Shown piece by piece: positions 1 to 26,581 of a DNA stretch of 37,755 nt; the stretch's first letter is position 1; the number at the start of each line of letters is the position of its first letter. The DNA is taken from NCBI GenBank assembly GCA_012267425.1, contig JAAXGO010000012.1, positions 1-37,755 of the forward strand. Direction: 5' to 3'. Under the pieces are notes generated by a model, which was not told where the DNA came from, searched no databases, and was given only the letters and a program-made list of their open reading frames with translations. A program made the position numbers and the translations under genes. The stretch is from Rhodothermales bacterium. GTDB lineage: Bacteria; Bacteroidota; Rhodothermia; Rhodothermales; Bin80.

Positions 1-469
1 GCGGAAGGCCGTTGACGAACAGGACGATGTCCGGCCGCCGCTCGTGCTCGCCCTCGACGACGGTGAACTGGTTGACCGCGAGCCAGTCGTTGTTCGCGTA
101 CTTCTCGTAGTCGAGGACCGAGACCTGCGCTCCGCGCAGGGCACCGCCGGCCCGGTATTCGATGGTCACTCCATGCACCAGCAAGCGATGGAACGCACGG
201 TTGCGGGCTTCCAGCGTCGAGCCTTCGGGCTGGATGAGCTTGCGCAACGCGTCGTCCAGAGCTTCGGCGGGCAGGCTGGGATTCAGCCGCTCCAAAGCGT
301 CCCGCAGCCGGTGTGCCAGAATGACTTCGCGGTAGTCCGTTCGTTCCGCGCCCGCCGTGTGCGGGGCGATGTCGGGACCGTGGGCCACCCTCCACCCGAG
401 GCTTTTCAGCCATTCGAGCGCCGCGGCTTCGACCTCCGACTCGGTGAAAGAAGAAGAGACGTGTGTCAT
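1..469 (-). CDS. hsdR: Type I restriction endonuclease subunit R (HsdR), N-terminal part, truncated by window edge
   Basis: Minus-strand translation from ATG at 469: [67 protein letters not shown]...[56 protein letters not shown]; typical HsdR N-terminus. Overlaps the hsdS stop (ATGA). Confidence 0.88.
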
Positions 470-1581
470 GTCACGGACTCCAATACCCTCTCCGCATCCG
501 GGACACGGATCTCGCCCGAAATGAGCTTGGGAAGGAGTGTGTCACGGAGCACGGCGAGCGTCTCCATCTCTCCAACATTTGCCACTAGCCGATCTCGCCA
601 AAGACCCACCACGCCAGCGAACACGCAGACGATAGCGGTGGGCGGAGCCACTATCGGAAATCGGCTCAAAACCTTCGCGTTCAGGCTCCGGCGTGTCGTT
701 CCGGTCGCACGCCCTCTTACGAGATGCCAGTAGGCGTCAGATCGCAGCCAATACTGCAAGAATCGTCCGGTGCCACTCGCAATTGGCCTGAAACGAATCA
801 AGTATGAAGCGAATACCGCCTCCAGGTCCTCCTCAACCACGACTCCATGCCCTGGATCTGCCATCCGAGCGATCAGCACATCCCCCCTGTTGAGCCGATA
901 CTTCGAGAACTCCTCGTCCGATGCCCTACAGTACGGGACACGCGACCACGACACCCACGATTCCTTGTTTATGTCAGTAATCCTCAGGAATCTCGGCCCG
1001 ACGGGCTCGTCCTGGGCGGATGCAGTGAATCCGTACTGCGGCTTGTGGCATAGGTCGCCCAACGTTCTTACCTTCCACCCCTCCGGAATCTCGCCCAATT
1101 CAGAATCCACCAGCCGGCCGGGGAACAGGTCGGCGATATCTCTCGGCAAGCCCGTGTCCCGGCCCGCCATCTTCGCGCGCACCGGATCAAAATCGATGAA
1201 CCATGACTTGAACAGCGCCCGAGCAATCTGCTCCAGCGTCGCGCTCATCCGACGGTTCACCTCGATCCTGTCGTCCAACGTGCCGAGGACATGGGCAATG
1301 GCGCGTTGCTCGGGGAAAGGGGGGAGCGGAACATCGAGTTCTGCCAATGCGTCCGTCGACACTCGTTGGCGTCCGGACGTGCCGGTCATCTGGCCAATCG
1401 CGTACTCCCGAACGAAATCTGACCGTGCAACGTAGAATGCGTACTCGGAATCGGTTACCCCGGGTCGACCGCGAACTACGATGAATTCCGTCGACCCATG
1501 GGCGACATCTCCTCCTAGGTCGGAGTTCGCGTAGTAGCGAGCAATCTTGCCGTTTTCCAAGCACGGCGTGATCCGGGCAAA
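466..1581 (-). pseudogene. hsdS: Type I restriction specificity subunit S (HsdS), 5'-truncated
   Basis: FARITPCLENGKIARYY..., PLPPFPEQRAIAHVLGTLDDRIEVNRRM, ALFKSWFIDFDPVRAKM, LGEIPEGWKVRTLGDL are HsdS hallmarks. The region upstream of FARITPCLENGK (residual N-terminal target-recognition domain) is replaced by transposase-derived DNA. Confidence 0.78.
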
Positions 1582-5420: not shown

Positions 5421-7160
5421 ATGAACAGTTTCCGCTGCGCGGTTTTCCTTCGTGCTATCACCGTCGGAACCCTCGCCCTTCTTGTGGCCGTACTGACAGG
5501 CGACCCGGCGTTCGGTGCCCCCCAGGAGGCTGCCGGTGACTATCGGACGCTCCCGTTCGTTAGCAGCCGTGTGGTAATGTGGGTTGTCGCGGAGTTGCAC
5601 CTGATGTTCGCCGCATTTGTGCTCGCGGTTCCGATGTTTGCGCTCATCATCGAGTACATCGGATACAAGACCGGCGACAAGCGCTTCGATGAGCTGGCGC
5701 ATGACTTTACGAAGCTGCTGAGCGTGTCTTTTTCGTTCACGGCCACACTGGGCGCGCTGCTCACGTTTCTGCTCATTGTTCTCTACCCGACTCTGTCGCA
5801 GTATCTCGTCAAGATCTTCAGCTGGACGTTTCTGCCATACGTCTTGCTGTTTTTCCTGGAGGCCATCTTTCTCTACTCCTATTACTACGGATGGGGCAAG
5901 TTTTCGCCGCGCGTCCATTTGTTCTTGGGCCTCATGCTCAACATCGTCGGCACGGCCATCATGTTCATTGCAAACGCGTGGCTCACGTTCATGAACACGC
6001 CTAACGGCATCGACGAGTTGGGCAACTTGACGAGTATCTGGGACGCGATCAACAATTACATCTGGATGCCGATTAACATTCACCGGCTGATTGCCAACAT
6101 GGCTTTCGGCGGCGCGATCGGTGCAGCGTACGGAGCCTACAAGTTTCTGGGCGCCCGCACTATGGAAGAGAAGGCGCACTACGACTGGATGGGCTACATC
6201 GGCAATTTTATCGCCATCTGCGCGTTGCTCCCGCTGCCGTTTGCCGGCTATTGGCTGGGAGTGGAAATCTACGCCTACGACCAGAGCCTGGGCATTACAC
6301 TCATGGGCGGGACGTTTTCCTGGCTCTTCATAATCCAGGCGGTTCTCATCGGCAACCTGTTTTTGGCCGCGAACTACTACCTCTGGTTGAGTATGGGGAG
6401 GATCGAAGGCGCTGAGCGGTACCGAAAGTTTATCAAGTACCTCTTGGCGGTCATCACGCTCTGTTTCATCGTATGGGCGACTCCACATTCTCTGGTGGCG
6501 ACAGTTGAAGAGGCGCGCGCGATGGGTGGGTCGCACCACCCGATACTCAACGTTCTGGGCGTGATGTCGGCCAAGAACACGGCGGTCAACCTGCTCATTC
6601 TCACCACGTATGTCAGTTTCCTGCTGTACCGCCGTGCAAACAAGCAGGCAACGGTCTCATGGGCAAAGGCAGGCAACCTCGTGCAGTTTGGGATTTTTGC
6701 GGTCGTCGTGATCTTCGTCGTATTCCTTGGCGTGTACGGGTACTTCGTCGATGCGCAGACGAGAATCGGGCTGTCACAACCACAGGTGATAAGCGTGCTG
6801 TTTGCGATGGTCGCCGTGACGGTGATCGACATATTTCTTTTCCGAGGTGCCGAAAAGCGCGGAGAAATCGCATGGGGCACGATTCCGAAGCGGGCCCAGT
6901 ATTCGCTCTTCTTCTTGGCCATCACGTTTGCCTGGCTCATGGGCTTAATGGGATACGTCCGGGCGGGTATGCGGCAGCACTGGCACGTATACGGAGTCAT
7001 CCGCGATACATCCGTGGACGCATTCACGCCAACGCTCGGGTATGCCGGTCTTATCGTGTCGATTACGGTCATCATCTTTTTCTTATTTATCGCGATTGTC
7101 TTCTTCCTGTCGGGGCTCTCTGGTAGGAAAAAGTGGGTTCCCAAGATCGCCGAGGCGTAA
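5421..7160 (+). CDS. CydA-like cytochrome bd-type oxidase subunit I (non-canonical, cytochrome c-associated)
   Basis: Polytopic protein with CydA-like helices: FSFTATLGALLTF, LLFFLEAIFLYSYYYGW, NIVGTAIMFIANAWLTFMNTP, NIHRLIANMAFGGAIGAAYGAY. No recognisable GRQPW motif; no cydB in the window. Confidence 0.78.
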   Translation: MNSFRCAVFLRAITVGTLALLVAVLTGDPAFGAPQEAAGDYRTLPFVSSRVVMWVVAELHLMFAAFVLAVPMFALIIEYIGYKTGDKRFDELAHDFTKLLSVSFSFTATLGALLTFLLIVLYPTLSQYLVKIFSWTFLPYVLLFFLEAIFLYSYYYGWGKFSPRVHLFLGLMLNIVGTAIMFIANAWLTFMNTPNGIDELGNLTSIWDAINNYIWMPINIHRLIANMAFGGAIGAAYGAYKFLGARTMEEKAHYDWMGYIGNFIAICALLPLPFAGYWLGVEIYAYDQSLGITLMGGTFSWLFIIQAVLIGNLFLAANYYLWLSMGRIEGAERYRKFIKYLLAVITLCFIVWATPHSLVATVEEARAMGGSHHPILNVLGVMSAKNTAVNLLILTTYVSFLLYRRANKQATVSWAKAGNLVQFGIFAVVVIFVVFLGVYGYFVDAQTRIGLSQPQVISVLFAMVAVTVIDIFLFRGAEKRGEIAWGTIPKRAQYSLFFLAITFAWLMGLMGYVRAGMRQHWHVYGVIRDTSVDAFTPTLGYAGLIVSITVIIFFLFIAIVFFLSGLSGRKKWVPKIAEA

Positions 7161-7182
7161 CCCATTCCAACGACACACCACC

Positions 7183-7989
7183 GTGAAACACGCGCTACAG
7201 ATTTTTGCCTTCACCATTTTGGTATCGGCCTTCTATTGGTACGTCAGTCTATGGGTACCGCAGAAGCGCACCGAGCCGCCTGAAGACATCATCATCGCGG
7301 CAGACCTCTCGGTCGAGCAAATGGTCGTGATCGGCGAAGAAATCGTGGCGGGCAAGGGCACCTGTCTAACGTGTCACACGATGGGCGAAAGCGGCACGGC
7401 GCTGCGGTTTCCGGATCTCGGTTCGATCGGTGCACTCGCCGGCATGCGCGTTGAGGGGATGAGTGACGTAGACTATCTTGCCGAGTCCCTCTACGACCCG
7501 AATGCTTACATCGTGGAAGGCTTCGTAGCAGGCATGCCCCCGGCAGCGAAGCCACCGGTAGCACTTGCCGACGACGAAATTTTGACGGTCATCGCCTACC
7601 TGCAGTCCCTGGGCGGCACACCGTCTGTGACGATGGATACGGAGTTCGAGTGGCAGGGAGCAGAGCCTGCTGTAGCGGCCACACCGTCCGCAGAACTTGC
7701 AGCCGCTGCGGCAGGCAGCAACCGTGACGCGGAAACTGTCTTTATGACCTACCTCTGTAATACCTGCCACACGCTTGACGGAACGCCGGGCGTGGGACCA
7801 AGTCTGCAGGGAGTCGGAAGCCGTCTCGATCGCGGCGAACTTTACGAATCGCTGATGGACCCGGATGCCACGATAGCCGACGGCTTCACACCGGGTGTGA
7901 TGACGGCAATGCTGACAGCAACCGCGTTTCACGAACAGGTATCTTCTGCCGAGCTGAAGACGTTGGTCGATTACCTGGCATCCCTCTAG
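7183..7989 (+). CDS. Membrane-anchored dihaem cytochrome c
   Basis: GTG start; N-terminal TM helix; CLTCH and CNTCH haem c motifs. Confidence 0.88.
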   Translation: MKHALQIFAFTILVSAFYWYVSLWVPQKRTEPPEDIIIAADLSVEQMVVIGEEIVAGKGTCLTCHTMGESGTALRFPDLGSIGALAGMRVEGMSDVDYLAESLYDPNAYIVEGFVAGMPPAAKPPVALADDEILTVIAYLQSLGGTPSVTMDTEFEWQGAEPAVAATPSAELAAAAAGSNRDAETVFMTYLCNTCHTLDGTPGVGPSLQGVGSRLDRGELYESLMDPDATIADGFTPGVMTAMLTATAFHEQVSSAELKTLVDYLASL

Positions 7990-8007
7990 CAGTTAGCACC
8001 TGCGGCA

Positions 8008-8835
8008 ATGAACATTCTAGTCCTTCTCGCCATTGTGGTCGGCTTGGTTGCCGTGCAGCTAGGGCTGACGCGATACGTGAAACTCAACCGGATGGCCTGG
8101 ATGGCAATCTGGTGGGTGGCCACGTGGCTGGCGCTGAGTTTCGGCATCAACCCGCCACTTCCGACCTCGATAATTGTCCTGTTCATGGCGATTGTGACTC
8201 TCGCGCTGGCTGCTTATCTGTCGGCAGACTCCGAAGAGCTGAAAGCAGCCGCGGACGTCAGCGTGAGCTTCATGGTGGACCCCAAATACAAGACGGCGTT
8301 GCTTGTAGTGGTCATCCTGATTCCTGCGCTGGTCTCCCTCAAGGTGTATTCGGATATGACGAAGCCGCCACAGCCTCCATCGAGTGGGCGCACGATCCAT
8401 CCGCCACCGCCGGCCACAATCGGTTTCGGAAATGTCACCATGCAGCTCGCGACGGCGAACAACCCGTACAGGGCGCTCGAGCATTCGGACCCCGACGCGT
8501 TCGCGCAGCACGTACAAAACGGGCGCAAGATTTATTTCCAGAATTGCTTCTGGTGTCACGGCGACAATATGCAGGGTGCTGGAATGTTTGCGCACGGATA
8601 CGACCCGATTCCGGCCAACTTCAATGATCCGACGACGATCGCCATGCTGCAGGAGTCGTATCTGTTCTGGCGTGTAGCGAAGGGTGCACCGGGGCTGCCA
8701 CCCGAATCGACACCGTGGGCGTCGGCGATGCCTGCATGGGAGAAATTCCTGACCGAAGAGGAGATCTGGGACGTGATCATCTTCCTCTACGAATACACCG
8801 GCTACGAACCACGCGCGCAGGGCATGCCGCACTGA
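8008..8835 (+). CDS. Membrane-bound monohaem cytochrome c
   Basis: N-terminal TM helices; GRKIYFQNCFWCHGDNMQGAGMFAHG (CFWCH) and distal methionine candidates. Confidence 0.85.
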   Translation: MNILVLLAIVVGLVAVQLGLTRYVKLNRMAWMAIWWVATWLALSFGINPPLPTSIIVLFMAIVTLALAAYLSADSEELKAAADVSVSFMVDPKYKTALLVVVILIPALVSLKVYSDMTKPPQPPSSGRTIHPPPPATIGFGNVTMQLATANNPYRALEHSDPDAFAQHVQNGRKIYFQNCFWCHGDNMQGAGMFAHGYDPIPANFNDPTTIAMLQESYLFWRVAKGAPGLPPESTPWASAMPAWEKFLTEEEIWDVIIFLYEYTGYEPRAQGMPH

Positions 8836-8849
8836 CGGGATTGTTAAGT

Positions 8850-10376
8850 ATGTTCCGACTCTTACTTATCGTCGCCACGTTGACACTCGCACAGCCGGGA
8901 CTGGCACAGGAGCCAGACCTTGGCACCGAGGGCCAGCGCGCCGAAGGTCAGGTGATTTACGATGCCAAGTGCGCTCACTGCCACGGCTTTAGTGGCGATG
9001 CCGAGAGCGTGGCTACGCCATTTTTGCGTCCGTCGCCGCGGGATTTTGTGTCCGGCAACTTCAAGTTTCGCTCTACGGCCAGCGGAGAGCTGCCGACCAC
9101 CGAAGACATAGAGCACAGCATCCGCGAAGGCATGCCGTACACGAGTATGCCCGCCTGGAAAGGCATTCTGTCAGAGGCAGAAATCTCAAGTCTGGCCTAC
9201 TACATCAAGTCATTCAACTCTGACTTTGCTGGACCCTATGGCACGCCGGACGTTATCGAGGTGCCCGACGCACCGGACTTCGACGAATCGAATCTGTCAC
9301 GCGGCCGCGAGGTCTTCGATGCAAATCAGTGTGCGGACTGCCACGGACAAAACGGACGCGGTAACGGGGAGTCGGCCACCGAGTTGATGGACGACTGGGG
9401 CTATCCGATCCGTCCGGCGGATATGACGAAGCGCTGGACCTTCCGCGGCGGCTCCACGCGCGAGGATATCTACCGCACCTTCACAACCGGGCTGAACGGT
9501 ACTCCGATGCCGTCTTATCAGCAGACGATCGACGAAGAGGATCGCTGGGCGCTTGTTGACTACGTGTATTCGCTTTCGCGCGACGAGCCGGACTACGGCA
9601 CCGTCGTTACGGCGCAGGGATTACTTGCTCCAATCGATGTCATTCAGGGAGCGGAACTCTTCGAGAATGCTCCTGCGACCTATTTCCCGATCGTGGGTCA
9701 GATCATCGAACCTGGGCGGTCATTCTATCCAGGCGTCAACGGCGTGGAAGTGCGCGCGGTCTACAACCAGCGTGACATTGCCGTGATGTTGTCGTGGAAC
9801 GACATGACTCAGGAAATAACTGGCTCGAACGGTCTCGCAATGGAGGTTCTACCGTTTGATTCTGACGTTCCCAGCACTGCTGATACTGTGTTTTCAGACG
9901 CTGCTGCGGTGCTACTTCCTTCCGCAGCCGTCGAGGGCATAGAGAAGCCGTACTTCATGTTTGGCGACTCTAAACGTCCGATGAGGATCTGGTATACAGA
10001 TCTTGCCACGGACAGTGCGGGCGTATTTACGAGCACGGGGTCGTCGTCGTTTGTCGCGGACGGTGAAGAGATCGAACGCTTTGCGAGCTACGAGGATGGC
10101 GTGTGGACTGTCATTTTCAAGGCCCGGCGGCAGGCAGAGAGCGGATTGTACTTCGAGGAAGCGGCATTTACGCCGATTTCATTCTCCATCTGGGACGGTT
10201 ACAGCCAAGAGCGCGGCAACAAGCGTGGACTATCGGCTTGGTACCACGTGTATCTGGAACCGCTCGAGACCATATCGCCGGTGGGCCCGATGGCAAAATG
10301 GGCGTTCATCGTCATCATTCTGGAGTTGGGCCTGATCGGAACCGTGCGCTATCGCCGGAGGAAGCAGAGAGCGTAG
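8850..10376 (+). CDS. Dihaem cytochrome c fused to ethylbenzene dehydrogenase-like haem b domain, C-terminal TM anchor
   Basis: Signal peptide MFRLLLIVATLTLAQPGLAQ; CAHCH and CADCH; C-terminal half with VEVRAVYNQRDIAVMLSWNDMTQ...YFMFGDSKRPMRIWYTDL...WTVIFKARRQ...FTPISFSIWDGYSQERGNKRGLSAWYHVYLEP resembles the EB_dh/DMSO-reductase gamma type domain; TM then RYRRRKQRA. Confidence 0.85.
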   Translation: MFRLLLIVATLTLAQPGLAQEPDLGTEGQRAEGQVIYDAKCAHCHGFSGDAESVATPFLRPSPRDFVSGNFKFRSTASGELPTTEDIEHSIREGMPYTSMPAWKGILSEAEISSLAYYIKSFNSDFAGPYGTPDVIEVPDAPDFDESNLSRGREVFDANQCADCHGQNGRGNGESATELMDDWGYPIRPADMTKRWTFRGGSTREDIYRTFTTGLNGTPMPSYQQTIDEEDRWALVDYVYSLSRDEPDYGTVVTAQGLLAPIDVIQGAELFENAPATYFPIVGQIIEPGRSFYPGVNGVEVRAVYNQRDIAVMLSWNDMTQEITGSNGLAMEVLPFDSDVPSTADTVFSDAAAVLLPSAAVEGIEKPYFMFGDSKRPMRIWYTDLATDSAGVFTSTGSSSFVADGEEIERFASYEDGVWTVIFKARRQAESGLYFEEAAFTPISFSIWDGYSQERGNKRGLSAWYHVYLEPLETISPVGPMAKWAFIVIILELGLIGTVRYRRRKQRA

Positions 10377-10407
10377 ACGGGTCGAACAGACGTACTGAGA
10401 GAACGAC

Positions 10408-11622
10408 GTGGAGTACCGGCCTTCGCTAATTTCGTGGAACCTCACCAAGCGGTGCAATCTGCGCTGCCCACACTGTTATATGGAGGCGGGGCGCAAGGCG
10501 GACCGCGAGTTGACGACAGATGAGTGTCTGGCTCTTTTGAGTGAAATGGAAGCTCTAGGCACCGAAATGCTTATCCTCACCGGAGGCGAACCGCTTTTGA
10601 GGAAGGATATTTACGCGATTGCGGAGCGTTCGAGCTCTCTCGGTATCTGGGTCGTAATGGGGACCAATGGAGTGCTGATTACGGATCGCGTCGCACGGAG
10701 AATGGTCGACTGTGGCGTCAAGGGCGTCGGAATTAGCATTGATTCGGCCGATCCGGCGCGCCACAACCGGTTCCGGGGAGGCCCTAACGCGTGGGAGTAT
10801 TCCGTGCGGGCTCTCGACATCTGCACGAAGCATGGCTTGGAAGTACTCGTGCAGACAACGGTAATGGAAGAAAACGAGCACGAAATCCCTGAGCTCCTCG
10901 AGTTTGCACGCGACAAGGGTGCCTGGTCGTTCAATCTGTACTTTTTGGTGCAGACTGGGCGCGGCAAGGCCATGACCGAGCTTTCCGCGGTTCAGACCGA
11001 GGCGATGCTCGAGCGGTTGGTTGACGAACAGGATCGATACCGTCCGATGCTCGTGCGTTCGAAATGCGCTCCGCAATTCAAGCGAATTGCCTGGTCGAAA
11101 GGGCTCGGCGGCATGGAAAGCGGGGGCTGCATGGCGGCCACGCAGTACTGCCGGATCACGCCTGACGGTGAAGTCACACCATGCCCATACATGACGGTGT
11201 CCGGCGGAAACGTCCTCGAAATGTCCTTTACAGACATCTGGACAACGTCCCCGGTTTTCCGGAACCTGCGCGACCCCGCTCTACTCAAGGGCCGTTGCGG
11301 CGCCTGTGAATTCAAAGAGCTCTGCGGCGGTTGCCGCTGCCGTGCGTTTGCTCGGACCGGCGATTACCTGGACGAAGATCCGGCCTGCACGTACGAACCG
11401 AAGGGCTTGCATCTCGAGGATGTAGAATGCACGTGGTCGGACGATGCACTGCTCCGGCTCGAGAGGATTCCGATCCGGTTCATTCGTGAAAAAACCCGTA
11501 GTGGCGTCGAGGCCTACGCACGCCGGAAACGTGTCGTAACGATCACGCCGGAGGTGATGACGGGTGCGCTATCTGGAATGGATCGCCCGCGCGCGTTTAC
11601 GATGCCGAAACGCCACGCCTAA
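10408..11622 (+). CDS. Radical SAM/SPASM protein (NirJ/AhbD-like) with C-terminal PCP_red-like domain
   Basis: SWNLTKRCNLRCPHCYMEAG (CxxxCxxC), LTGGEPLLRKD, SPASM cysteines CRITPDGEVTPCPY...GRCGACEFKELCGGCRCRA; C-term WSDDALLRLERIPIRFIREKTRSGVEAYARRKRVVTITPEVM. GTG start. Confidence 0.88.
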   Translation: MEYRPSLISWNLTKRCNLRCPHCYMEAGRKADRELTTDECLALLSEMEALGTEMLILTGGEPLLRKDIYAIAERSSSLGIWVVMGTNGVLITDRVARRMVDCGVKGVGISIDSADPARHNRFRGGPNAWEYSVRALDICTKHGLEVLVQTTVMEENEHEIPELLEFARDKGAWSFNLYFLVQTGRGKAMTELSAVQTEAMLERLVDEQDRYRPMLVRSKCAPQFKRIAWSKGLGGMESGGCMAATQYCRITPDGEVTPCPYMTVSGGNVLEMSFTDIWTTSPVFRNLRDPALLKGRCGACEFKELCGGCRCRAFARTGDYLDEDPACTYEPKGLHLEDVECTWSDDALLRLERIPIRFIREKTRSGVEAYARRKRVVTITPEVMTGALSGMDRPRAFTMPKRHA

Positions 11623-11627
11623 GCCGT

Positions 11628-11822
11628 ATGCCGTACACGATAACGGACGACTGCACGGCCTGTGACCTTTGCATCGATGTGTGCCCGATCGGTGCGATTG
11701 CGGAGGGCGACCCAATTTATGTCATTGATGACACATGCTGCGAATTCGAGGAATGCCTAGTGATGTGTGACGATAACGCCATCGTACCGAGCGAGGACGT
11801 AGAAGACGCCAAAGGTGGTTGA
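11628..11822 (+). CDS. 4Fe-4S ferredoxin (atypical second cluster motif)
   Basis: CTACDLCIDVCPIGAI canonical; second motif TCCEFEECLVMCDDNAI unusual. Confidence 0.85.
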   Translation: MPYTITDDCTACDLCIDVCPIGAIAEGDPIYVIDDTCCEFEECLVMCDDNAIVPSEDVEDAKGG

Positions 11823-12150
11823 AAACGAAGTCTACTTCCTAAGTTTTCAGGAATTCCGGCAGATGGCGCCGGCGATCCTGGATCTCGAGGTCAAGCGGTT
11901 GGCTGGTCTCATCGACGATGTCAGCGCTGCTGAACGGAACGATCTCGTGTGGGCGCGACACAACGTAATGGAAAGCGTGGCCGCGATTGAACAACTGGAC
12001 AAGGACAGACTGGAAAGCGACTGCGCCCCGCTTCTAGAAGCCGCGATGATTACTATCGGTCTATTGACCGACAGAGTAGACCGTGTAACACTTCAGTACG
12101 TTCTTAACCGGCTCACGTACGTTCGCGAGCGTATACCATATGTCGTATGA
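11815..12150 (+). CDS. Small conserved hypothetical protein of the PCP_red cluster
   Basis: GTG start overlapping ferredoxin stop; 111 aa; soluble, helical-looking sequence; no recognised domain. Confidence 0.62.
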   Translation: MVENEVYFLSFQEFRQMAPAILDLEVKRLAGLIDDVSAAERNDLVWARHNVMESVAAIEQLDKDRLESDCAPLLEAAMITIGLLTDRVDRVTLQYVLNRLTYVRERIPYVV

Positions 12151-12232: not shown

Positions 12233-14143
12233 ATGTACAAGAAGATCTTCGTTCCCGTAGACAATTCGGAGCATTCCATCGCCGCTGTCGACCTGGCCGT
12301 TGACTTTGCCAAGCGGTTCGACGCCGATGTAGTGGGGAGTCATGCCTACGCTGCACGCATGCACGACTACCGTTTCAAACAGATGGAATTCACGCTGCCG
12401 GAGGAGTATCTGATCGAGGATCAGATGGAGAAGCAGCGAAAGATCCACGACACGCTCATCACGATGGGGCTCGAGCTGATTTCGGATTCCTACCTGGTAG
12501 TAGCGGACGCGCGATGCAAGGAGGCGGGTGTGCGGTTTACCCCCAAGATGTACGACGGCAAGAACTGGAAAGTGATTGTCAAGGACATCGAAGATAGCGG
12601 CTACGATCTCGTGATAATCGGTGCCTTGGGGCTCGGCGCCGTCAAGGACAGCGTCCTGGGCAGCGTTTGCGAGCGTGTCACGCGTCGGGTTAGAACGGAC
12701 ACGCTCGTCATCAAACATCTGGAGTCAGTCAGTGCTGGTGGCGATGGAACGGCACCGACGGGCAGTATCGTGGTCGGTGTAGACGGCAGCCCCGAGTCGT
12801 TCGCGGGACTTAAGACGGCGCTTTTGCTCGGTCGTGAAACCGGCCGCCAGGTCGAAGCCGTGTCAGTATACGATCCGTATCTGCACTACGCGATGTTCAA
12901 TAGCATCGTCAACGTGTTGACCGAAAAGGCGTCCAAGGTGTTTCGGTTCAAAGAGCAGGAGCAGCTCCACGAAGAAGTGATTGACACGGGGCTGGCGAAG
13001 ATCTACCAGTCGCACCTCGAAGTTGCACGACGTATTGCCGAAGAGGAAGGGGTGGATCTTAAGATCACACTTCTGGACGGCAAGGCCTTCGAGAAGCTCT
13101 TGCAATACGTGCGTCGGGAAGAGCCGTGGTTGTTGGTTCTCGGCCGGATCGGTGTCCACAGCGACAGCGAAATGGACATCGGTAGCAACACGGAGAATCT
13201 GCTGCGAACCGTTTCCTGCAACGTTTTGCTGTCAAGCCAACGATACACGCCGCCGATCGACGTAAGTGCTGAAGAGTCGATGCTCTGGACTGAACCTGCC
13301 ACGCGCATTCTCAATACCGCGCCTGATTTCGCGCGCGGTATTGCACGCACCACAATCCACCGGTGGGCGACGGAACGCGGGCATTCGGTAATAACAAGAG
13401 GGATCGTAGAACAGGCCATGGGAAACATCCTGCCCAGGTCGTCGATGGTCAAAATGGGTATCGTCGCGGCAGATGCGGCGGTAGAGGAAATAGAGGCGGT
13501 GGATTCCGCCACGTACGTGTGCAGCAATTGTGGGTATGCAGCTCGCGGCTTCGAGCCGGTTACATGTGCCGTATGCGGCAAGGACGCAGCAGTCTTCCAT
13601 AAACTCGACAAGGAGACCATCGAGCGTCTCATTCCGCTCGAAGGAGGCATTGAAGAGGAATCAACATTCGACGACGTGAAGCTCAGGTGGTCGAAAGAGG
13701 CCCGTGCCCGTCTCCGCGAGGTTCCGGACGGTTACCAGATGCGCCGCGCAAAGGCTCAGATTGAAAAGCGCGCCCGCGTGCAGCGCGTCCCGATGATCAC
13801 GCTTGACATGGTGAGGGCCGTGGTTGACGACCATGCGGTGGATACGCAGTTCCTTGCCGAGCGCGGGCAGCTCAAAAGAGACGCCGACGGTGTCGAGCGC
13901 CCTGCAGCCTCAAAGCCCGTCATGGAAGACCTCGTGCAAGACGGAGGTTTTCTTTGGACCAAGCGCGCTGTTGCACGCATTGACCGCGTTCCGGAAGGAT
14001 TCATGCGGACGCGGACGAAAGAGCGCGTCGAAGGTGTGGCACGCCAGCGCTCGACGACGCTGATAACGCTCGAGATCACCGAAGAGGGCATCAAGGAAAG
14101 CCTTAAGCTGATGGAGGAGATGATCCAGCAGCAGGCGAGGTAA
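12233..14143 (+). CDS. Double universal stress protein (UspA) domain protein with three PCP_red-like domains and a zinc ribbon/rubredoxin-like insert
   Basis: USP1 MYKKIFVPVDNSEHSIAAVDLA...DLVIIGALGLGAVKDSVLGSVCERV; USP2 GSIVVGVDGSPESFAGLKTA; PCP_red-like at LWTEPATRILNTAP, LRWSKEARARLREVPDG, FLWTKRAVARIDRVPEG; Zn ribbon YVCSNCGYAARGFEPVTCAVCGK. Confidence 0.87.
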   Translation: MYKKIFVPVDNSEHSIAAVDLAVDFAKRFDADVVGSHAYAARMHDYRFKQMEFTLPEEYLIEDQMEKQRKIHDTLITMGLELISDSYLVVADARCKEAGVRFTPKMYDGKNWKVIVKDIEDSGYDLVIIGALGLGAVKDSVLGSVCERVTRRVRTDTLVIKHLESVSAGGDGTAPTGSIVVGVDGSPESFAGLKTALLLGRETGRQVEAVSVYDPYLHYAMFNSIVNVLTEKASKVFRFKEQEQLHEEVIDTGLAKIYQSHLEVARRIAEEEGVDLKITLLDGKAFEKLLQYVRREEPWLLVLGRIGVHSDSEMDIGSNTENLLRTVSCNVLLSSQRYTPPIDVSAEESMLWTEPATRILNTAPDFARGIARTTIHRWATERGHSVITRGIVEQAMGNILPRSSMVKMGIVAADAAVEEIEAVDSATYVCSNCGYAARGFEPVTCAVCGKDAAVFHKLDKETIERLIPLEGGIEEESTFDDVKLRWSKEARARLREVPDGYQMRRAKAQIEKRARVQRVPMITLDMVRAVVDDHAVDTQFLAERGQLKRDADGVERPAASKPVMEDLVQDGGFLWTKRAVARIDRVPEGFMRTRTKERVEGVARQRSTTLITLEITEEGIKESLKLMEEMIQQQAR

Positions 14144-14146
14144 GTT

Positions 14147-15067
14147 GTGAAGAGGTACCGTGACATTGCCTCCGACGGGGGCTCCGACATCGCACAGCAG
14201 GTGGCTGCTCAGGCGCAGCGAGCATCAGCGCGTCTCGCCCAAGTACACCATGTTGTGGCCGTCATGAGCGGTAAGGGCGGCGTGGGTAAGAGTACGCTGA
14301 CCGTAAACCTGGCAGCGGTACTTGCACGCAAGAGTCATGCTGTCGGAATTCTGGACGGTGACATCAACGGCGGGTCCGTCGCCAAGATGATGGGCGTCCG
14401 TGCTTGGACGCCGAGGGCGACGTCCCAGGGGATGCTGCCGGCCGAAGCGGAGTTTGGCATTCGCGTGATGTCGATCGATCTCTTCCTGCCCCAGGACGCG
14501 ACGCCTGTGCTCTGGCGTGCTCCGAGCCAGGAAGGTGCCTATCACTGGCGCACGATGATGGACGTGGCGGCACTTAGGGAAATGCTCTCGGACACGAAGT
14601 GGGGCGCACTCGACATCCTTTTCATCGATCTGCCTCCGGGCGCGGACAAGCTGCCGAACGCCTCCGACGTCGTCCCGAAGCTGTCCGGGACTGTTGTTGT
14701 AACCGGCCCATCCGACGTGTCGAGGCTTGTGGTCGGGCGCTCGATGACCATGGCACGTGACGTCGTACACACCCCCGTGATCGGGTTGATCGAAAACATG
14801 GGCCCATACACGTGCAGCCGGTGCGGACACGAAGAGGAACTGTTTCCGTCGGGGCATGCCCGCCGACTGGCTGAGGAGCACGACGTCGAGTATCTGGGCT
14901 GCGTGCCGTTCGACCCACGACTTTCCCGTGCCATGGACGACGGCGGACTTTTTGCCACGCGGTTTCCCGACCGCCCGGCTTCCCGTGCACTGAGCAGCGC
15001 TGCCGATCGGGTCGCGGAGTTTTTGGGCCTTTTGCCTCAATCATCAATGAACGGACATACCTCATGA
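14147..15067 (+). CDS. Mrp/ApbC/NBP35-family P-loop ATPase (Fe-S carrier-like)
   Basis: VVAVMSGKGGVGKSTLTVNLAAVLA (deviant Walker A), DGDINGGSVAKMMG, LDILFIDLPPGADKLP, GLIENMGPYTCSRCGHEEELFPSGHARRLAEE. GTG start. Confidence 0.88.
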   Translation: MKRYRDIASDGGSDIAQQVAAQAQRASARLAQVHHVVAVMSGKGGVGKSTLTVNLAAVLARKSHAVGILDGDINGGSVAKMMGVRAWTPRATSQGMLPAEAEFGIRVMSIDLFLPQDATPVLWRAPSQEGAYHWRTMMDVAALREMLSDTKWGALDILFIDLPPGADKLPNASDVVPKLSGTVVVTGPSDVSRLVVGRSMTMARDVVHTPVIGLIENMGPYTCSRCGHEEELFPSGHARRLAEEHDVEYLGCVPFDPRLSRAMDDGGLFATRFPDRPASRALSSAADRVAEFLGLLPQSSMNGHTS

Positions 15068-15546
15068 AATTTCTCTGCGTCCCCTGCGACGAGCCGATGA
15101 AGATTCACCAGGCGCAGGGTCCCGACCGCGGCTCGATGGCCATCGTCTACCGATGTGGCACGTGTGGACACGACATAGCCATGCTGACAAACAGCATGGA
15201 GACGCAGATGGTGCGCTCACTCGGTGTCACTATCGGTGGGCGAAGCGAGCCGGAAGAGCCCATGGATATGCTGCGGTCTTCGCTCGCCGCTGCGCGCTCC
15301 GACGTAGCGACCGAGAAGCGGGCGAGTAGCTCGAAATGCCCCTTTACCGGCGTCGTCGAGGAGGCGTACAGCCAAAAGCCAAGTGAGCTGGTATGGACGG
15401 CAGAGGCGCGAGACCGAATCGGGCGGGTTCCAGACTTCGTGCGCCCCATGGTCAAGAAGGGCGTCGAGGAGTACGCCCGATCGCGCGGGTACGCGGAAAT
15501 CAGTTCCGCGGTGATGGACGAAGCGAAGGGACGTGTCGGGGCGTAG
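15064..15546 (+). CDS. Zinc-ribbon protein with C-terminal PCP_red-like domain
   Basis: CVPCDEPM...YRCGTCGHDIAM zinc ribbon; LVWTAEARDRIGRVPDFVRPMVKKGVEEYARSRGYAEISSAVMDEA; ATGA overlap with preceding gene. Confidence 0.83.
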   Translation: MKFLCVPCDEPMKIHQAQGPDRGSMAIVYRCGTCGHDIAMLTNSMETQMVRSLGVTIGGRSEPEEPMDMLRSSLAAARSDVATEKRASSSKCPFTGVVEEAYSQKPSELVWTAEARDRIGRVPDFVRPMVKKGVEEYARSRGYAEISSAVMDEAKGRVGA

Positions 15547-17436: not shown

Positions 17437-19209
17437 ATGGCAGAGTCGACCAACGGGGAGGTTGTCCTAACTAACGGGCACCACGAGTCTAATCACTCCG
17501 CTGGGTTTTGGCGGACGTATTGGTTTTCCACCGACCACAAGATGATCGGGCTGCAGTACGGGATCACCGCACTGTTTTTCCTGCTTTTCGGTTTTGGCCT
17601 GATGCTGCTTATGCGGTGGCAGCTCGCTACGCCGGGTGTAGAGATTCCGCTACTGGGGGCGCTCACTCCGGAACTCTACAACCAATTCGGAGCCATGCAC
17701 GGCACCATTATGGTGTTCATGGGCATCGTTCCGCTCGCCGTAGGGGCGTTTGGCAACTACGTCGTTCCGCTGCAGATCGGGGCTGTAGACATGGCCTTCC
17801 CGCGGATCAACATGGCCAGCTATCACTTCTTCTTCTGGGGAGGTGTGGTCATGCTTGCGAGCTTCTTCGTACCGGAAGGAGCAGCGAAGGCAGGCTGGAC
17901 GTCATATCCACCGTTGGCGGACATCGAGACGATGGGCCAGACGATGTGGCTCTTAGGGATGGTTCTTTTGATCACTTCGTCGCTCCTTGGTGCCATCAAT
18001 TTCATTACGACGATCATCCAGCTACGGGCAGACGGAATGACGTTTTTCCGCATGCCATTTTTTGTCTGGGCGCAGTTCATTACGGCGTTCCTTTTGCTCC
18101 TTGCGTTTCCGCCCCTCGAGGCGGCGGCCATTTTGCAGCTTGCTGACAGGCTGCTCGATACGAGTTTTTTCTTGCCGAGTGGTCTCGTGACGGCGGACGG
18201 TCCGCTGGAGGTCTCTGGCGGCGGAAGCCCGCTGCTTTGGCAGCATTTGTTCTGGTTCCTGGCGCATCCGGAGGTGTATGTTCTCATTCTGCCCGCGATG
18301 GGCATCGTTGCCGAAATCATAGCAAACAATACGCGCAAGCCGTTGTGGGGCTACCGCCTCATGGTGTATTCCCTGATCTTCCTCGGCTTCATGTCCTTCA
18401 TCGTGTGGGCACATCACATGTTCATCACGGGCATGGGCACGGCGATTAGCGCCTTCTTCCAGGTTACCACGATGATCATTTCGATTCCTTCGGTGGTCAT
18501 CTTGTCGGCGCTGTTTCTGTCGCTCTGGGGTGCTTCGATGCGATTCTCGGTACCTATGCTGTTTGCGCTGGGCTTTCTGCCCATGTTCGGCATCGGTGGG
18601 CTTACGGGGCTACCGCTCGGCCTTGCGCCGACGGACATTCCGCTTCACGACACGTACTACGTGATCGGCCATTTCCACTACGTTGTGGCGCCCGGGAGCA
18701 TCTTGGCACTGTTTGCCGGAATCTACTATTGGTTTCCTAAGGTGACCGGCCGGGAAATGAATGACACCCTGGGACGGATTCACTTCTGGGGATCGTTAAT
18801 TACCATGAACGGGATCTTCTTCCCGATGCTCATTCAGGGGATGGCGGGTGTTTCCAGGCGCCTTTTTGACGGCGGGTTGGCATATAGTTTTTCCGAGCCG
18901 GTACTCCACTACAACACGTTCATGTCAGTATCTGCATTCGCTTTGGCGATTGTGCAGATACCTTTCATCTGGAACTTCTTCTGGAGCATCCGCAACGGCA
19001 AGGCGGTCGTGAAGGACAATCACTGGGATGCGACTACGCTCGAATGGTCGGCTGCGCCGACGCCTCCGGTGGGTCACGGCAATTTCGTCACCGTTCCGCG
19101 CGTCTATCACGACCCGTACGAATACAATATGCCGGGTGCCGGCAAAGAATTTGTCGCGCAGAACGATCCGCTTTCTGCGCGGTCCATGCCCGAAACTGTA
19201 GAAGTCTGA
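17437..19209 (+). CDS. ctaD: Cytochrome c oxidase subunit I, A1-like (HPEVY)
   Basis: WFSTDHKMIGLQYG, WQHLFWFLAHPEVYVLILPAMGI, VWAHHMFITGM, LHDTYYVIGHFHYV. Confidence 0.95.
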   Translation: MAESTNGEVVLTNGHHESNHSAGFWRTYWFSTDHKMIGLQYGITALFFLLFGFGLMLLMRWQLATPGVEIPLLGALTPELYNQFGAMHGTIMVFMGIVPLAVGAFGNYVVPLQIGAVDMAFPRINMASYHFFFWGGVVMLASFFVPEGAAKAGWTSYPPLADIETMGQTMWLLGMVLLITSSLLGAINFITTIIQLRADGMTFFRMPFFVWAQFITAFLLLLAFPPLEAAAILQLADRLLDTSFFLPSGLVTADGPLEVSGGGSPLLWQHLFWFLAHPEVYVLILPAMGIVAEIIANNTRKPLWGYRLMVYSLIFLGFMSFIVWAHHMFITGMGTAISAFFQVTTMIISIPSVVILSALFLSLWGASMRFSVPMLFALGFLPMFGIGGLTGLPLGLAPTDIPLHDTYYVIGHFHYVVAPGSILALFAGIYYWFPKVTGREMNDTLGRIHFWGSLITMNGIFFPMLIQGMAGVSRRLFDGGLAYSFSEPVLHYNTFMSVSAFALAIVQIPFIWNFFWSIRNGKAVVKDNHWDATTLEWSAAPTPPVGHGNFVTVPRVYHDPYEYNMPGAGKEFVAQNDPLSARSMPETVEV

Positions 19210-19213
19210 CTAC

Positions 19214-19858
19214 ATGGAATTACAGATTCCCTACGAGGTAGTGCCGCGCCGGGACACGGGCGTTAACAATGCCAAGCTCGGCATCTGGCTGTTCCTCGCG
19301 TCTGAAGTAATGCTCTTCGGCGGTCTGTTCGCTGCCTATGTGTTTCTGCGCATGGGTGCAGAGGCCTGGCCTGGAATGATGATTCCGGACACCACGGAAA
19401 TGGCAGCGCGGGCAGATCAGATTCTGAGCGTGCCGCTTGCGACGCTGAACACCTTGGTTCTGATCGCCTCGTCGGTCACAATGGTGATGTCGTGGGCATC
19501 ACTGAAAATGAAGGATCTTGGTAAGTACAAAATCTACATGGGGCTGACGATTGTTCTGGCCTTTGTCTTCCTTGTTGTAAAGTATTTCGAGTACGGGTCC
19601 AAGTTTGGCCACCACCTGTACCCGGAAACGAACATGTTTCTGGCAGTCTACTTCGTGCTCACGGGACTGCACGCGCTTCACGTGACAGGCGGCATCATCG
19701 TAAACGCGTACTTCTGGGGCCCCGGCACAAAGATGTGGACGCAGGGCAATGACCACGATAAAGAACACTTCACTAACCGAGTCGAAGTAGCCGGGCTCTA
19801 TTGGCACTTCGTGGATCTCGTGTGGATCTTCCTTTTTCCGACGATCTACCTCCTATAG
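19214..19858 (+). CDS. ctaE: Cytochrome c oxidase subunit III
   Basis: GIWLFLASEVMLFGGLFAAYVFLR...LTGLHALHVTGGI...VEVAGLYWHFVDLVWIFLFPTIYLL. Confidence 0.93.
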   Translation: MELQIPYEVVPRRDTGVNNAKLGIWLFLASEVMLFGGLFAAYVFLRMGAEAWPGMMIPDTTEMAARADQILSVPLATLNTLVLIASSVTMVMSWASLKMKDLGKYKIYMGLTIVLAFVFLVVKYFEYGSKFGHHLYPETNMFLAVYFVLTGLHALHVTGGIIVNAYFWGPGTKMWTQGNDHDKEHFTNRVEVAGLYWHFVDLVWIFLFPTIYLL

Positions 19859-19890
19859 TCACGTTTCCAAGCGAAAAGCGAACAGGTTCA

Positions 19891-20226
19891 ATGGCCGAGA
19901 ACATGACGGTGGAAGACATCCGTAAACATGTCCGGGTGTATGTGATGGTTTTCGCAGCGTTGGCTGTACTGACGGTGGTGACCGTTCTGGTGTCCTGGCT
20001 GGACATGACCATAGTGCCGGCTCTCGTCGTGGCGCTCGTGATCGCTCTTGTCAAGGGATCACTTGTCGCCGCGTACTTCATGCACCTGGTCAGCGAAAAG
20101 CAAGTGATCATGTGGGTGCTGCTCGTAACGGCGGCTTTCCTCGTGTGCATGTTCATTCTGTTCGTCGCCGCGCTTGCGGATCAGGAATACGTGTCGTTAC
20201 TCTTCGAGGCGATGCATGTCGCTTAG
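19891..20226 (+). CDS. Cytochrome c oxidase subunit IV (prokaryotic COX4-like)
   Basis: Small three-TM protein IRKHVRVYVMVFAALAVLTVVTVLVSWLD...VIALVKGSLVAAYFMHLVSEK, position after subunit III. Confidence 0.82.
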   Translation: MAENMTVEDIRKHVRVYVMVFAALAVLTVVTVLVSWLDMTIVPALVVALVIALVKGSLVAAYFMHLVSEKQVIMWVLLVTAAFLVCMFILFVAALADQEYVSLLFEAMHVA

Positions 20227-20422
20227 GGTCTTTCACCTCGTTTTCATCGTCTGCTCGACGCTCTTGGCATTCGGCTTCGGAGTGTGGGGAGTTTACATGC
20301 ACATGGCCTTCGACCGGATCGGGCTATTCCTCACGGGCGTATGCTCGCTTGCAGCCGGGATCGCACTCGTGTTCTACGGGCTGGGTATTGCGAAGAAATT
20401 CAAGGAGCTGCGGCTTAGATAG
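20216..20422 (+). CDS. Small two-TM membrane protein of cox operon
   Basis: MSLRVFHLVFIVCSTLLAFGFGVWGVYMHM...; overlaps end of subunit IV gene. Confidence 0.6.
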   Translation: MSLRVFHLVFIVCSTLLAFGFGVWGVYMHMAFDRIGLFLTGVCSLAAGIALVFYGLGIAKKFKELRLR

Positions 20423-20431
20423 AAAGACGTC

Positions 20432-20707
20432 ATGACTTGGGCTCGGAAGGTAGTTTCGGTTCTCGTGCTCATTGTGCTCTCGCCCGCCGCTGCGTTGGCC
20501 TGTGAGCAGTGTCTCGGCATCGGTGGTGCCAACGGGCCCACCATTCGTGCGCTCGTGTTGTCGATGGCGTCATTGCTGGCAATCGTAGGCTTCGTGTGCA
20601 CCGGGATCAGCATGTTCTTCGTGAGGGTGCACCGACGGTCCAAGATGCTCGAGCCGGGTGATTTAGCGGTCAACCAGTACGGTGATCTCCGCCCGAACAC
20701 TCGGTAG
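20432..20707 (+). CDS. Small exported/membrane protein with CEQC motif, cox operon
   Basis: Signal-like N-terminus ...SPAAALACEQCLGIGGANGP then a TM helix. Confidence 0.6.
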   Translation: MTWARKVVSVLVLIVLSPAAALACEQCLGIGGANGPTIRALVLSMASLLAIVGFVCTGISMFFVRVHRRSKMLEPGDLAVNQYGDLRPNTR

Positions 20708-20736
20708 AATTCTCTTCTTCAATCAAGGACCAAGAC

Positions 20737-21672
20737 ATGTTCGATCTGGCCGAATTTATGGGTATGCCGCTGGACGCGTCAGGCCACGGGGCGCCCATCG
20801 ATTCCATGATGGGGTGGGTCCACTGGCTCATGGTGGCGCTATTTGTCATCTGGGCTCCGTTTTTCCTCTACACGCTGTACCGGTTCAGGGCCACGAAGAA
20901 TCCGAAGGCGAGCTATCATGGCGTTAAGAGCAAGTTTTCTTCGTACCTCGAAGGCGGTGTCGTCGTAGCGGAAGGCGTCCTCCTGGTGGGGTTTGCTTTC
21001 CCCATCTGGGGTGATATCAAGAATGATTTTCCGCCGGAAGAGGCGTCGACGGTCGTCAACGTCATTGCAGAGCAGTTTGCCTGGAATATCATCTATCCCG
21101 GTGCCGACGGTGAATTTGGACGCACGACGCTCACCAAGCCGATCGAGATCGATGCTACTGATCCAAGGGGTGCCGACGACATCATTGTAGCCGACGAGCT
21201 ACACGTCGTCAAGGGCAAGCCCGTTATCGTCCATCTGATGTCGCGGGACGTCATTCACAGTTTCGGTCTGCCGAACATGCGCGTAAAGCAGGATCTGATT
21301 CCGGGGCTTACGATTCCGGTTTGGTTCGTACCGGAGATGTCGACGGCGGAGTTTCATCAGGAAATGAAAAAGCGGTTGCCGATTTCTGACGAGCAGCAGC
21401 GTCGCCGCCAATGGCCGCCCTACCGCTGGATTGCGATGGAGGAGGTCGCGGGAGCAGGTGGTGAGGTACTAGTCGGAATGAATCAACGTCTTTCGACGCG
21501 TGTCCTGGATCGGCTGCACGAAGCTGGCGTCGCGGATATATTAGCGGCTCCCGACATGGAAATCAGCTGTGCACAGCTCTGCGGTGGTGGCCACTACAGC
21601 ATGCGGGGAACCGTCATCGTCCACGAGACCGAAGAGGATTTCGACGCGGCATTGCAGACGTACGTGTATTAG
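20737..21672 (+). CDS. ctaC: Cytochrome c oxidase subunit II (CuA, no fused haem c)
   Basis: SRDVIHSFGLPNMRVKQDLIPG and CuA motif CAQLCGGGHYSMRG; no CxxCH. Confidence 0.92.
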   Translation: MFDLAEFMGMPLDASGHGAPIDSMMGWVHWLMVALFVIWAPFFLYTLYRFRATKNPKASYHGVKSKFSSYLEGGVVVAEGVLLVGFAFPIWGDIKNDFPPEEASTVVNVIAEQFAWNIIYPGADGEFGRTTLTKPIEIDATDPRGADDIIVADELHVVKGKPVIVHLMSRDVIHSFGLPNMRVKQDLIPGLTIPVWFVPEMSTAEFHQEMKKRLPISDEQQRRRQWPPYRWIAMEEVAGAGGEVLVGMNQRLSTRVLDRLHEAGVADILAAPDMEISCAQLCGGGHYSMRGTVIVHETEEDFDAALQTYVY

Positions 21673-25913: not shown

Positions 25914-25918
25914 GTCGG

Positions 25919-26581
25919 TCAGATCAGATACAAGAGCGGAAAAAGAAAAATCCAAATGATGTCCACCAGGTGCCAATACAGTCCGGTCAGCTCGATCGGC
26001 GTGTAGTAAGCGGACGAAAAATGGCCGCGCACGACGCGCGTGACGAGCCACACAAACAATCCCATACCTACAAGTACGTGAAACCCGTGAATGCCGGTCA
26101 TCACGAAGTAAATGCTGAAGAACTGGGCTGCATAGGGGACGTCGTAGGCGACATAATCCAGTCCGTGGGATTCGCCGTGTGGCGAGAATCCGGCTCCCGG
26201 AAAAACGCCGTGGGCAAACTTACCCGAGTACTCGAAATACTTGACGACCATAAAGGCCGCAGCACAGAGGAGCGTCAGAATCAGGAGCACGGCCACCTTT
26301 TCCCTCTCGTCGCGCTGCGCAAAGTGGATTGACAGCGCAACGGTGAACGAGCTCGCAAGAAGTACGAGCGTGTTCAGCCCTCCCAGACGCCAGTCCAACA
26401 ACTCGCTAGACTGCGCAAAGACCTCTGGGTGTCCGATCCTGTATACCGTATAGGCCACGAACATGCCGCTGAAAAGGAGCACCTCTGTGACCAGAAACAG
26501 CCACATACCTGTCTTCGCTGAGTCGAACTGCTGTTCGCTCGAAACGAAATGCGCATGAACGTGGGAGGCAGTAGCTGCCAT
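25919..26581 (-). CDS. ctaE: Cytochrome c oxidase subunit III
   Basis: GMWLFLVTEVLLFSGMFVAYTVYR...MTGIHGFHVLVGM...IELTGLYWHLVDIIWIFLFPLLYLI. Confidence 0.93.
   Translation of the reverse strand: MAATASHVHAHFVSSEQQFDSAKTGMWLFLVTEVLLFSGMFVAYTVYRIGHPEVFAQSSELLDWRLGGLNTLVLLASSFTVALSIHFAQRDEREKVAVLLILTLLCAAAFMVVKYFEYSGKFAHGVFPGAGFSPHGESHGLDYVAYDVPYAAQFFSIYFVMTGIHGFHVLVGMGLFVWLVTRVVRGHFSSAYYTPIELTGLYWHLVDIIWIFLFPLLYLI

Follow-up and report, generated by a model that had tools for sequence, protein, structure and literature searches.

Gene content of the locus

The window analysed here is a stretch of 37,755 nucleotides from a Rhodothermales bacterium, and all of the features described below lie on its + strand. 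One gene (5421..7160) encodes CydL, a non-quinol CydA-like protein of 579 aa with about 14 hydrophobic helices, which was assigned using PF01654, an AF2 model, Foldseek and a tree. Three cytochrome genes follow at intergenic gaps of 22, 18 and 14 bp: cyt2c (7183..7989), a TM-anchored dihaem cytochrome c with a GTG start and CxxCH motifs at residues 61 and 192; cyt1c (8008..8835), a TM-anchored protein with three hydrophobic helices and a monohaem cytochrome c; and cytEB (8850..10376), in which domain matches and an AF2 model delineate a dihaem c part, an EB_dh/NxrC-type haem-b domain and a C-terminal TM helix. Both the domain matches and the gene layout agree with the succession of dihaem, monohaem and dihaem-plus-haem-b cytochromes described in an earlier note on this DNA.

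Downstream, a radical SAM/SPASM protein of NirJ2/AhbD-like type with a C-terminal PCP_red domain (rSAM-PCP_red; 10408..11622) was recognized by TIGR04055, TIGR04545 and PF08369. It is followed by a 111-aa protein (11815..12150) that matched none of the families in the Pfam/NCBIfam search and was present in only part of the loci compared, by a protein with tandem universal-stress-protein domains and three PCP_red domains (USP-PCP_red; 12233..14143; PF00582, PF08369), by an Mrp/NUBPL-type P-loop ATPase (14147..15067; PF10609, 2.3e-70) and by a zinc-ribbon-like protein with a C-terminal PCP_red domain (15064..15546; PF08369, 1.4e-16), the gene for which shares 4 bp with the Mrp gene. The interval 5421-10376 given in the earlier note encloses the four oxidase-type genes but ends too early, as linked genes run to 15546; the tetrapyrrole-type module thereby left out is rated here as the most informative part of the locus.

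A CydL-type gene and the three cytochromes form one operon in 75-80 of 80 loci from many phyla, with cyt1c kept in 79/80; at two loci (L149 and L151) a cyt2c-type haem-c domain is fused to the CydA-like protein. Homologues of ActB and ActE were found upstream in 32/58 and 31/58 loci, respectively, and haem-copper oxidase genes lie close by in ten loci; neighbours of either kind are consistent with aerobic respiration. A search for named relatives on plasmids gave only weak partial matches, none of which reached 80% query coverage.

Residues, fold and phylogeny of CydL

The Pfam search matched CydL to Cyt_bd_oxida_I (PF01654; 3.6e-27) over profile positions 2-240 of 418 only, and the NCBIfam search returned zero matching models. 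The AF2 model (pLDDT 84.5, pTM 0.84) was submitted to Foldseek, which gave ten matches at E<=0.001, all of them bd-oxidase CydA chains, in keeping with the earlier description of the protein as CydA-like.

In cytochrome bd, haem b558 is ligated by H186 and M393 and the high-spin pair by H19 and E445, the latter being the b595 ligand (Escherichia coli numbering). H19, E107 and H186 are conserved in CydL as H60, E147 and H221, and the CydL alignment contained no conserved counterparts of M393, E445, K252 or E257. The last two, which are quinol/Q-loop positions, are occupied by G291 and G296, and the Q-loop itself is gone, with helices in its place. Two residue changes reported by eye in the earlier note were borne out. 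Residues 517-522 read MRQHWH where canonical CydA has GRQPW, with R518 and H522 retained across all of the non-canonical homologues, and the first acidic residue of helix III (E99) is matched by an invariant Tyr140 in the large alignment and by Pro139 in a smaller one. Judged from these sequences, the loss of E99 and E445 could leave CydL with an altered or missing catalytic centre.

In the tree CydL falls outside the quinol-oxidising CydA clades (split support 100/100, on a very long branch) and groups with bd-like proteins of Nitrospinota (support 100/100), the CydA of which has been typed as OR-N, a non-quinol form (PMC10839748). CydL has the CydA core and active-site residues and lacks the quinol site, as do the non-quinol bd-like proteins (OR-N/OR-C), and it departs from canonical CydAB in its residues, its b558/high-spin ligand set, its clade and the want of a CydB. 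Its identity with canonical CydA was ruled out by the residues, the tree and the missing CydB.

Neither the window nor its genome (89.9% complete) contains a CydB gene (PF02322), so that the absence of cydB behind CydL noted earlier extends to the genome, and a CydB encoded elsewhere in it was rejected. PF02322 is likewise absent from 21/22 Rhodothermia carriers. A single PF01654 gene was detected in the window's genome, so no CydA' paralogue was found at this completeness, and PF01654 matches were single in 12 of the 18 carrier genomes scanned. That CydL is a quinol oxidase working in the canonical cytochrome bd mode through a new quinone site is hardly credible: its fold is that of CydA, but K252/E257 and the Q-loop have been lost, CydB is missing and cytochromes c nearly always lie alongside or are fused to the protein.

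The rSAM/PCP_red/Mrp module

The rSAM-PCP_red protein scored 339 bits with TIGR04055 and 302 bits with TIGR04545, both below the 500-bit cut-off; it lies below all NCBIfam equivalog cut-offs and does not rank as a NirJ2 or AhbD equivalog. C16, C20, C23 and the SPASM cysteines are invariant, and NirJ2 and AhbD were also the top family matches of four further rSAM homologues. The USP-PCP_red gene is present in 49 of the 52 loci with at least 9.5 kb of downstream sequence. The zinc-ribbon-PCP_red protein matches the C-terminal domain of subunit B of light-independent protochlorophyllide reductase (DPOR; 2kru, 2xdq), and this homology points to PCP_red as a tetrapyrrole-related domain.

Counted without correction for relatedness, PCP_red was found in 22/22 carriers of the non-canonical CydA and 0/127 others in Rhodothermia, in 57/57 and 0/3 in Nitrospinota, and in 17/17 and 4/182 in Acidobacteriota. 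It was absent from Rhodothermia having ordinary CydAB only. The module genes are physically linked in Rhodothermia, so co-transfer could account for part of the co-occurrence; in Nitrospinota, orthologues of rSAM-PCP_red and of the Mrp-PCP_red genes are retained although they lie away from the oxidase genes. A literature search for a link between PCP_red or NirJ and bd-like oxidases found none.

Genes for haem b, among them those for ferrochelatase and a PPOX-like protein, are clustered in the nearest complete relative, so the rSAM is dispensable for haem b; a reading of the rSAM as a plain haem b synthase was rejected for this reason. The module might instead act on a target other than the haem of the oxidase, for instance by modifying a peptide, delivering iron-sulphur clusters or regulating a stress response, and simply travel with the operon. 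The rSAM has a PqqE-like score of 152 bits and SPASM radical SAM proteins also act on peptides, Mrp ATPases are known iron-sulphur carriers and the genes are adjacent in Rhodothermia. We consider this rather unlikely, as the top rSAM matches, repeated in the four further homologues, both act on tetrapyrroles, PCP_red is otherwise known from DPOR, the association persists where the genes are non-adjacent or on separate contigs, and the CydAB-only Rhodothermia are without PCP_red. As favoured here, rSAM-PCP_red, USP-PCP_red, the Mrp ATPase and zinc-ribbon-PCP_red would make, modify or insert a tetrapyrrole cofactor specific to the non-quinol family. We propose, tentatively, that the non-quinol bd-like oxidases as a class may hold a modified haem foreign to canonical cytochrome bd, and that the NirJ2/AhbD-like rSAM, the Mrp ATPase and the PCP_red proteins may constitute an undescribed pathway for making or installing it.

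Proposed function and comparison with known systems

The best explanation, to which we assign a probability of roughly one half, is that the locus encodes a bd-like reductase that depends on cytochrome c and most likely acts on O2, together with a dedicated module for maturation of a tetrapyrrole cofactor; activity, substrate and cofactor are all deduced indirectly. In the putative membrane complex, periplasmic cytochromes c would feed electrons to a haem-bearing CydA-like core, which would reduce O2 using neither a quinol site nor CydB. Electrons would pass from the haem-b/dihaem domains of cytEB and/or from cyt1c to cyt2c, then to the haem on H221 and finally to the high-spin haem(s) on H60. 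E147 would belong to the proton path; Y140, R518 and H522, which are specific to the family, may stand in for E99 and for E445, the ligand of b595.

The cytochrome-c-dependent bd-like reductase put forward in the earlier note retains the support of the tree, the absence of CydB and CydA', the cytochrome operon and the haem-c fusions, but NO, which that note had allowed as a substrate, is unsupported. Altered ligands could fit a different gas, NO is encountered by nitrite oxidisers and anammox bacteria, and the PF00115 (NorB-type) genes of the genome are two oxidase subunits I, with no further one. A cytochrome-c-dependent nitric oxide reductase is nevertheless highly improbable and was rejected, since association with NirK is absent: in Rhodothermia NirK occurs in 1/22 carriers and 34/127 non-carriers (p 0.03 in the wrong direction, kinship ignored), and the neighbouring genes are those of aerobic respiration.

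The AF2 model of cytEB matched 6h5l_B (40% identity), 2ivf_C (EbdC) and 7b04_C (NxrC), and its second half is NxrC/EbdC-like in fold. This would suit a membrane electron relay rather than an oxidase: the complex would anchor a periplasmic nitrite oxidoreductase and let electrons run in reverse between cytochrome c and the quinone pool, a role proposed for the four-gene cluster described alongside alt_NxrC in Nitrospira, Nitrospina and anammox bacteria (PMC6606698, PMC3578206). Such a relay is improbable here: numerous carrier lineages have no known nitrite oxidation, the quinone residues are missing from CydL, and a NarG/NXR-like gene was not found in the 2.4 of 3.2 Mb covered in the nearest relative (the CydL region, at 2.73 Mb, lies outside). 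The same cluster has been placed in anaerobic anammox bacteria (PMC6606698), where the role of an O2 reductase is less evident.

Some Nitrospinae are without a canonical haem-copper oxidase, and bd-like proteins are their candidate electron route to O2 (PMC8026999). The Rhodothermota form, with one CydA, three cytochromes and hosts that are not nitrite oxidisers as far as is known, can tell the oxidase from the nitrite-oxidoreductase-anchor hypothesis. Were this family to require a dedicated tetrapyrrole module, attempts to express it in a heterologous host lacking the module should fail, and haem extraction would address the cofactor directly.

CydL shares with canonical CydAB the CydA fold and equivalents of H19, E107, H186 and R448, whereas E99, M393, E445, K252, E257, GRQPW, the Q-loop and CydB are missing from its system. 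The window rSAM has the radical SAM plus SPASM architecture of NirJ, NirJ2 and AhbD, to which it gives its best family scores; it differs in falling below their equivalog cut-offs, in its attached PCP_red and in adjoining Mrp, USP-PCP_red and zinc-ribbon-PCP_red. NirJ removes propionate side chains during haem d1 synthesis (PMC12505453). The PCP_red domain of DPOR subunit B (2kru, 2xdq, 2ynm) is a homologous 45-residue domain, but in the window it is attached to proteins of the radical SAM, USP and zinc-ribbon types, and the hosts are not known phototrophs.

The OR-N CydAA' proteins, putative cytochrome-c-oxidising O2 reductases (Murali et al. 2021, cited in PMC10839748 and PMC12342949), resemble CydL in being cytochrome c-linked and in lacking a quinol site and CydB. 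CydAA' is proposed as a pair of paralogues, unlike the single PF01654 gene of the window's 89.9% complete genome, and OR-N5 adjoins ACIII genes in Nitrospirales, as the CydL-type gene adjoins ActB/ActE homologues in Acidobacteriota.

The closest counterpart is the bd-like_3/alt_NxrC_2 cluster of Nitrospira, Nitrospina and anammox bacteria (PMC6606698, PMC3578206, PMC8026999), the gene set of which is present in the CydL operon: a bd-like protein of about 14 helices without quinol residues, two cytochromes c, and alt_NxrC_2, which has the architecture of cytEB (NxrC-like, signal peptide, one TM helix, two haem c motifs). The Nitrospinota locus L141 has the four genes in the order of the window, with CydL 47% identical. 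The CydL hosts differ in not being known nitrite oxidisers, in having a single CydA paralogue in most carriers and in the linked rSAM/PCP_red module; the cytochromes c are dihaem and monohaem in the window but dihaem and trihaem in Nitrospinae (PMC8026999). Publications already cover both the OR-N/OR-C families of non-quinol proteins and the occurrence of the four-gene cluster in Nitrospira, Nitrospina and anammox bacteria (PMC10839748, PMC12342949, PMC6606698, PMC3578206, PMC8026999), and the CydL operon is therefore no new kind. It extends them in two respects: a stand-alone, single-CydA form occurs in further phyla, including Rhodothermota, Calditrichota and Acidobacteriota, with related proteins bearing a fused haem-c domain that resembles cyt2c, and downstream rSAM/PCP_red/Mrp genes co-occur with the non-quinol CydA-like protein.

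Operon layout and CydL

Three cytochrome genes lie downstream of the CydA-like gene (CydL, 579 aa; 5421-7160, plus strand), separated by 22, 18 and 14 bp. The first, cyt2c (7183-7989, GTG start at 7183), encodes a TM-anchored dihaem cytochrome; the monohaem product of cyt1c (8008-8835) has three hydrophobic helices; and cytEB (8850-10376) is a dihaem protein that also contains a haem-b domain and ends in a TM helix. The earlier note had these positions right; its end at 10376 was wrong, as linked genes run on to 15546. The gene 31 bp beyond cytEB encodes a radical SAM/SPASM protein that includes a PCP_red domain (rSAM-PCP_red); after it come those for a 111-aa protein with no family match (11815-12150; found chiefly in Rhodothermota and Calditrichota loci), a universal-stress-protein/PCP_red fusion (USP-PCP_red), an Mrp-type ATPase (mrp) and a zinc-ribbon-like PCP_red protein (pcp, ending at 15546). 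Elsewhere, an ORF at 466-1560 (minus strand) looks by eye like the specificity subunit of a type I restriction system, and the large secreted protein encoded at 21929-24220 has a type IX secretion sorting tail (PF18962).

The Pfam Cyt_bd_oxida_I match is limited to the N-terminal half of CydL. Ten PDB chains matched the AlphaFold model (pLDDT 84.5, pTM 0.84) with E<=0.001, all CydA chains. Fourteen hydrophobic helices were assigned, as many as the bd-like protein of Nitrospina is reported to have (PMC3578206). In the alignment, H60, E147, H221 and R518 are equivalent to E. coli CydA H19, E107, H186 and R448; for M393, E445, K252 and E257 no conserved counterpart was found in CydL and the non-canonical homologues. 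The E99 position is an invariant Tyr in these homologues and CydL carries MRQHWH instead of GRQPW, bearing out two by-eye claims, that the first acidic residue of helix III is replaced and that GRQPW is absent. R518 and H522 of MRQHWH are invariant in 123 non-canonical sequences, and helices stand in place of the Q-loop stretch in the model. Judged by the positive-inside pattern, the MRQHWH loop would face the periplasm.

The window genome (89.9% complete) contains one PF01654 gene and no PF02322 match, in agreement with the proposed lack of a CydB partner. Among 149 Rhodothermia genomes, full-length CydL occurs in 22 and canonical CydA in 20, CydB (above cut-off) in exactly the latter 20, and both systems together in G028 only. 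A single PF01654 match was found in 12 of 18 carrier genomes drawn from several phyla.

From a genome scan, 80 of 264 loci (55-91% identical) were kept, from Rhodothermota, Calditrichota, Acidobacteriota, Fibrobacterota, Verrucomicrobiota, Lentisphaerota, Myxococcota, Nitrospinota and others. The CydA-family phylogeny called for in the earlier note (maximum likelihood, 41 rows) placed CydL outside canonical CydA, which was split from CydL and all bd-like Nitrospinota proteins with support 100/100. Closest to CydL, with weak support (82/83), was the Nitrospinota type L119/L116/L079/L118; Nitrospinota CydA have been typed as OR-N1/OR-N2 (PMC10839748). A myxococcotal locus (L047) has two divergently transcribed CydL-type operons (genes at 6768-8903 and 9809-11626), each with its own cytochromes, their CydL-type proteins being 46% and 66% identical to CydL; L026 also has a second paralogue. 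At L107:2617-3618 (Nitrospinota) a NarH/NxrB-like iron-sulphur subunit gene immediately precedes a bd-like gene of a shorter kind (type B).

Cytochrome partners

Adjoining CydL were cyt2c at 80/80 loci, cyt1c at 79/80 and cytEB at 75/80. The order of all four genes is kept in a Nitrospinota locus (L141) at 25-47% identity. Structural matches of the cytEB model are 6h5l_B, a dihaem protein from Kuenenia (40% identity; TM-score 0.88 by target), ethylbenzene dehydrogenase gamma (2ivf_C) and NxrC (7b04_C). L151, which shares 50% identity with CydL across 541 aa, and L149 are CydA-like proteins from Nitrospinota that both end in a haem-c domain, fused behind an extra TM helix. The domain is homologous to cyt2c (37% identity, E 8e-19 in a two-sequence database). 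This fusion is the most direct evidence that cytochrome c feeds the CydA-like core. A c-linked complex of CydL, cyt2c, cyt1c and cytEB is well supported.

The PCP_red module

PCP_red (PF08369) is a domain known from light-independent protochlorophyllide reductase; in 14 control genomes it was found in the cyanobacterium only. In Rhodothermia it is present in 22/22 CydL genomes versus 0/127 others (Fisher 9e-27, relatedness ignored), the latter including those with canonical CydAB only. Nitrospinota have PCP_red and non-canonical CydA in the same 57/60 genomes (p 3e-5, relatedness ignored), and Acidobacteriota have PCP_red in 17/17 carriers versus 4/182 others (p 4e-21, relatedness ignored). 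In three of these four non-carriers the frames are 527-580 aa long and might represent BchB of phototrophs; the fourth has a 112-aa frame. One-block transfer may explain part of the Rhodothermia pattern. It does not explain Nitrospinota, because rSAM-PCP_red (46% identical) and mrp-pcp (about 40%) are located away from the oxidase, nor some Acidobacteriota, because certain PCP_red genes and the oxidase are on different contigs. In L032 (Verrucomicrobia) the module is a separate group on the opposite strand. A conserved protein of ~300 aa, acetyltransferase-like by eye, is encoded together with USP-PCP_red at L032:15823-16734 and L049:17294-18232 (Acidobacteria).

The families nearest to the radical SAM protein are NirJ2 and AhbD, both acting on tetrapyrroles, with scores below their cut-offs; its radical SAM and SPASM cysteines are invariant. 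Ordinary haem b does not require the module, given that a single cluster in the nearest complete relative contains hemA, hemB, hemE, ferrochelatase, a PPOX-like flavoprotein and a hemL-like aminotransferase. Co-occurrence and homology suggest a role in a cofactor. In the part of the literature searched, no paper was found that connects bd-like oxidases with PCP_red or with NirJ-like radical SAM genes.

Substrate and known systems

Our reading, at roughly even odds, is a bd-like reductase that depends on cytochrome c, most likely reduces O2, and has a haem cofactor that would be made or inserted with the aid of the module. O2 is suggested by the kept residues of the family and by neighbouring haem-copper oxidase and ActB/ActE genes. 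Two haem-copper oxidases are encoded at 17437-21672 and 25209-37650, one beside alternative complex III genes and SCO (minus strand); the first cluster is directly upstream of CydL in relatives (e.g. L014, L023, L032). ActB-like and ActE-like genes immediately upstream of CydL in Acidobacteriota (e.g. L034, L037, L050, L074) suggest that the CydL oxidase is linked to part of an alternative complex III. The earlier note had left the substrate of its c-dependent reductase open; the c-linkage stands, and NO as substrate is disfavoured because an association with NirK is lacking. A role as anchor of nitrite oxidoreductase (NXR) loses weight, as most carriers here are not known to oxidise nitrite; the NXR check covered part of one relative.

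The main counter-argument to O2 reduction comes from the literature, which places the bd-like_3/alt_NxrC_2 cluster in anammox bacteria. The cluster was described in Nitrospira, with conservation reported for anammox bacteria and for Nitrospina (PMC6606698; also PMC8026999). In Nitrospira it comprises bd-like_3, alt_NxrC_2 and two cytochromes c; alt_NxrC_2 is dihaem and has a signal peptide and one TM helix (PMC6606698). CydL and its three cytochrome genes correspond to this published cluster, and the oxidase is a variant of an already described kind.
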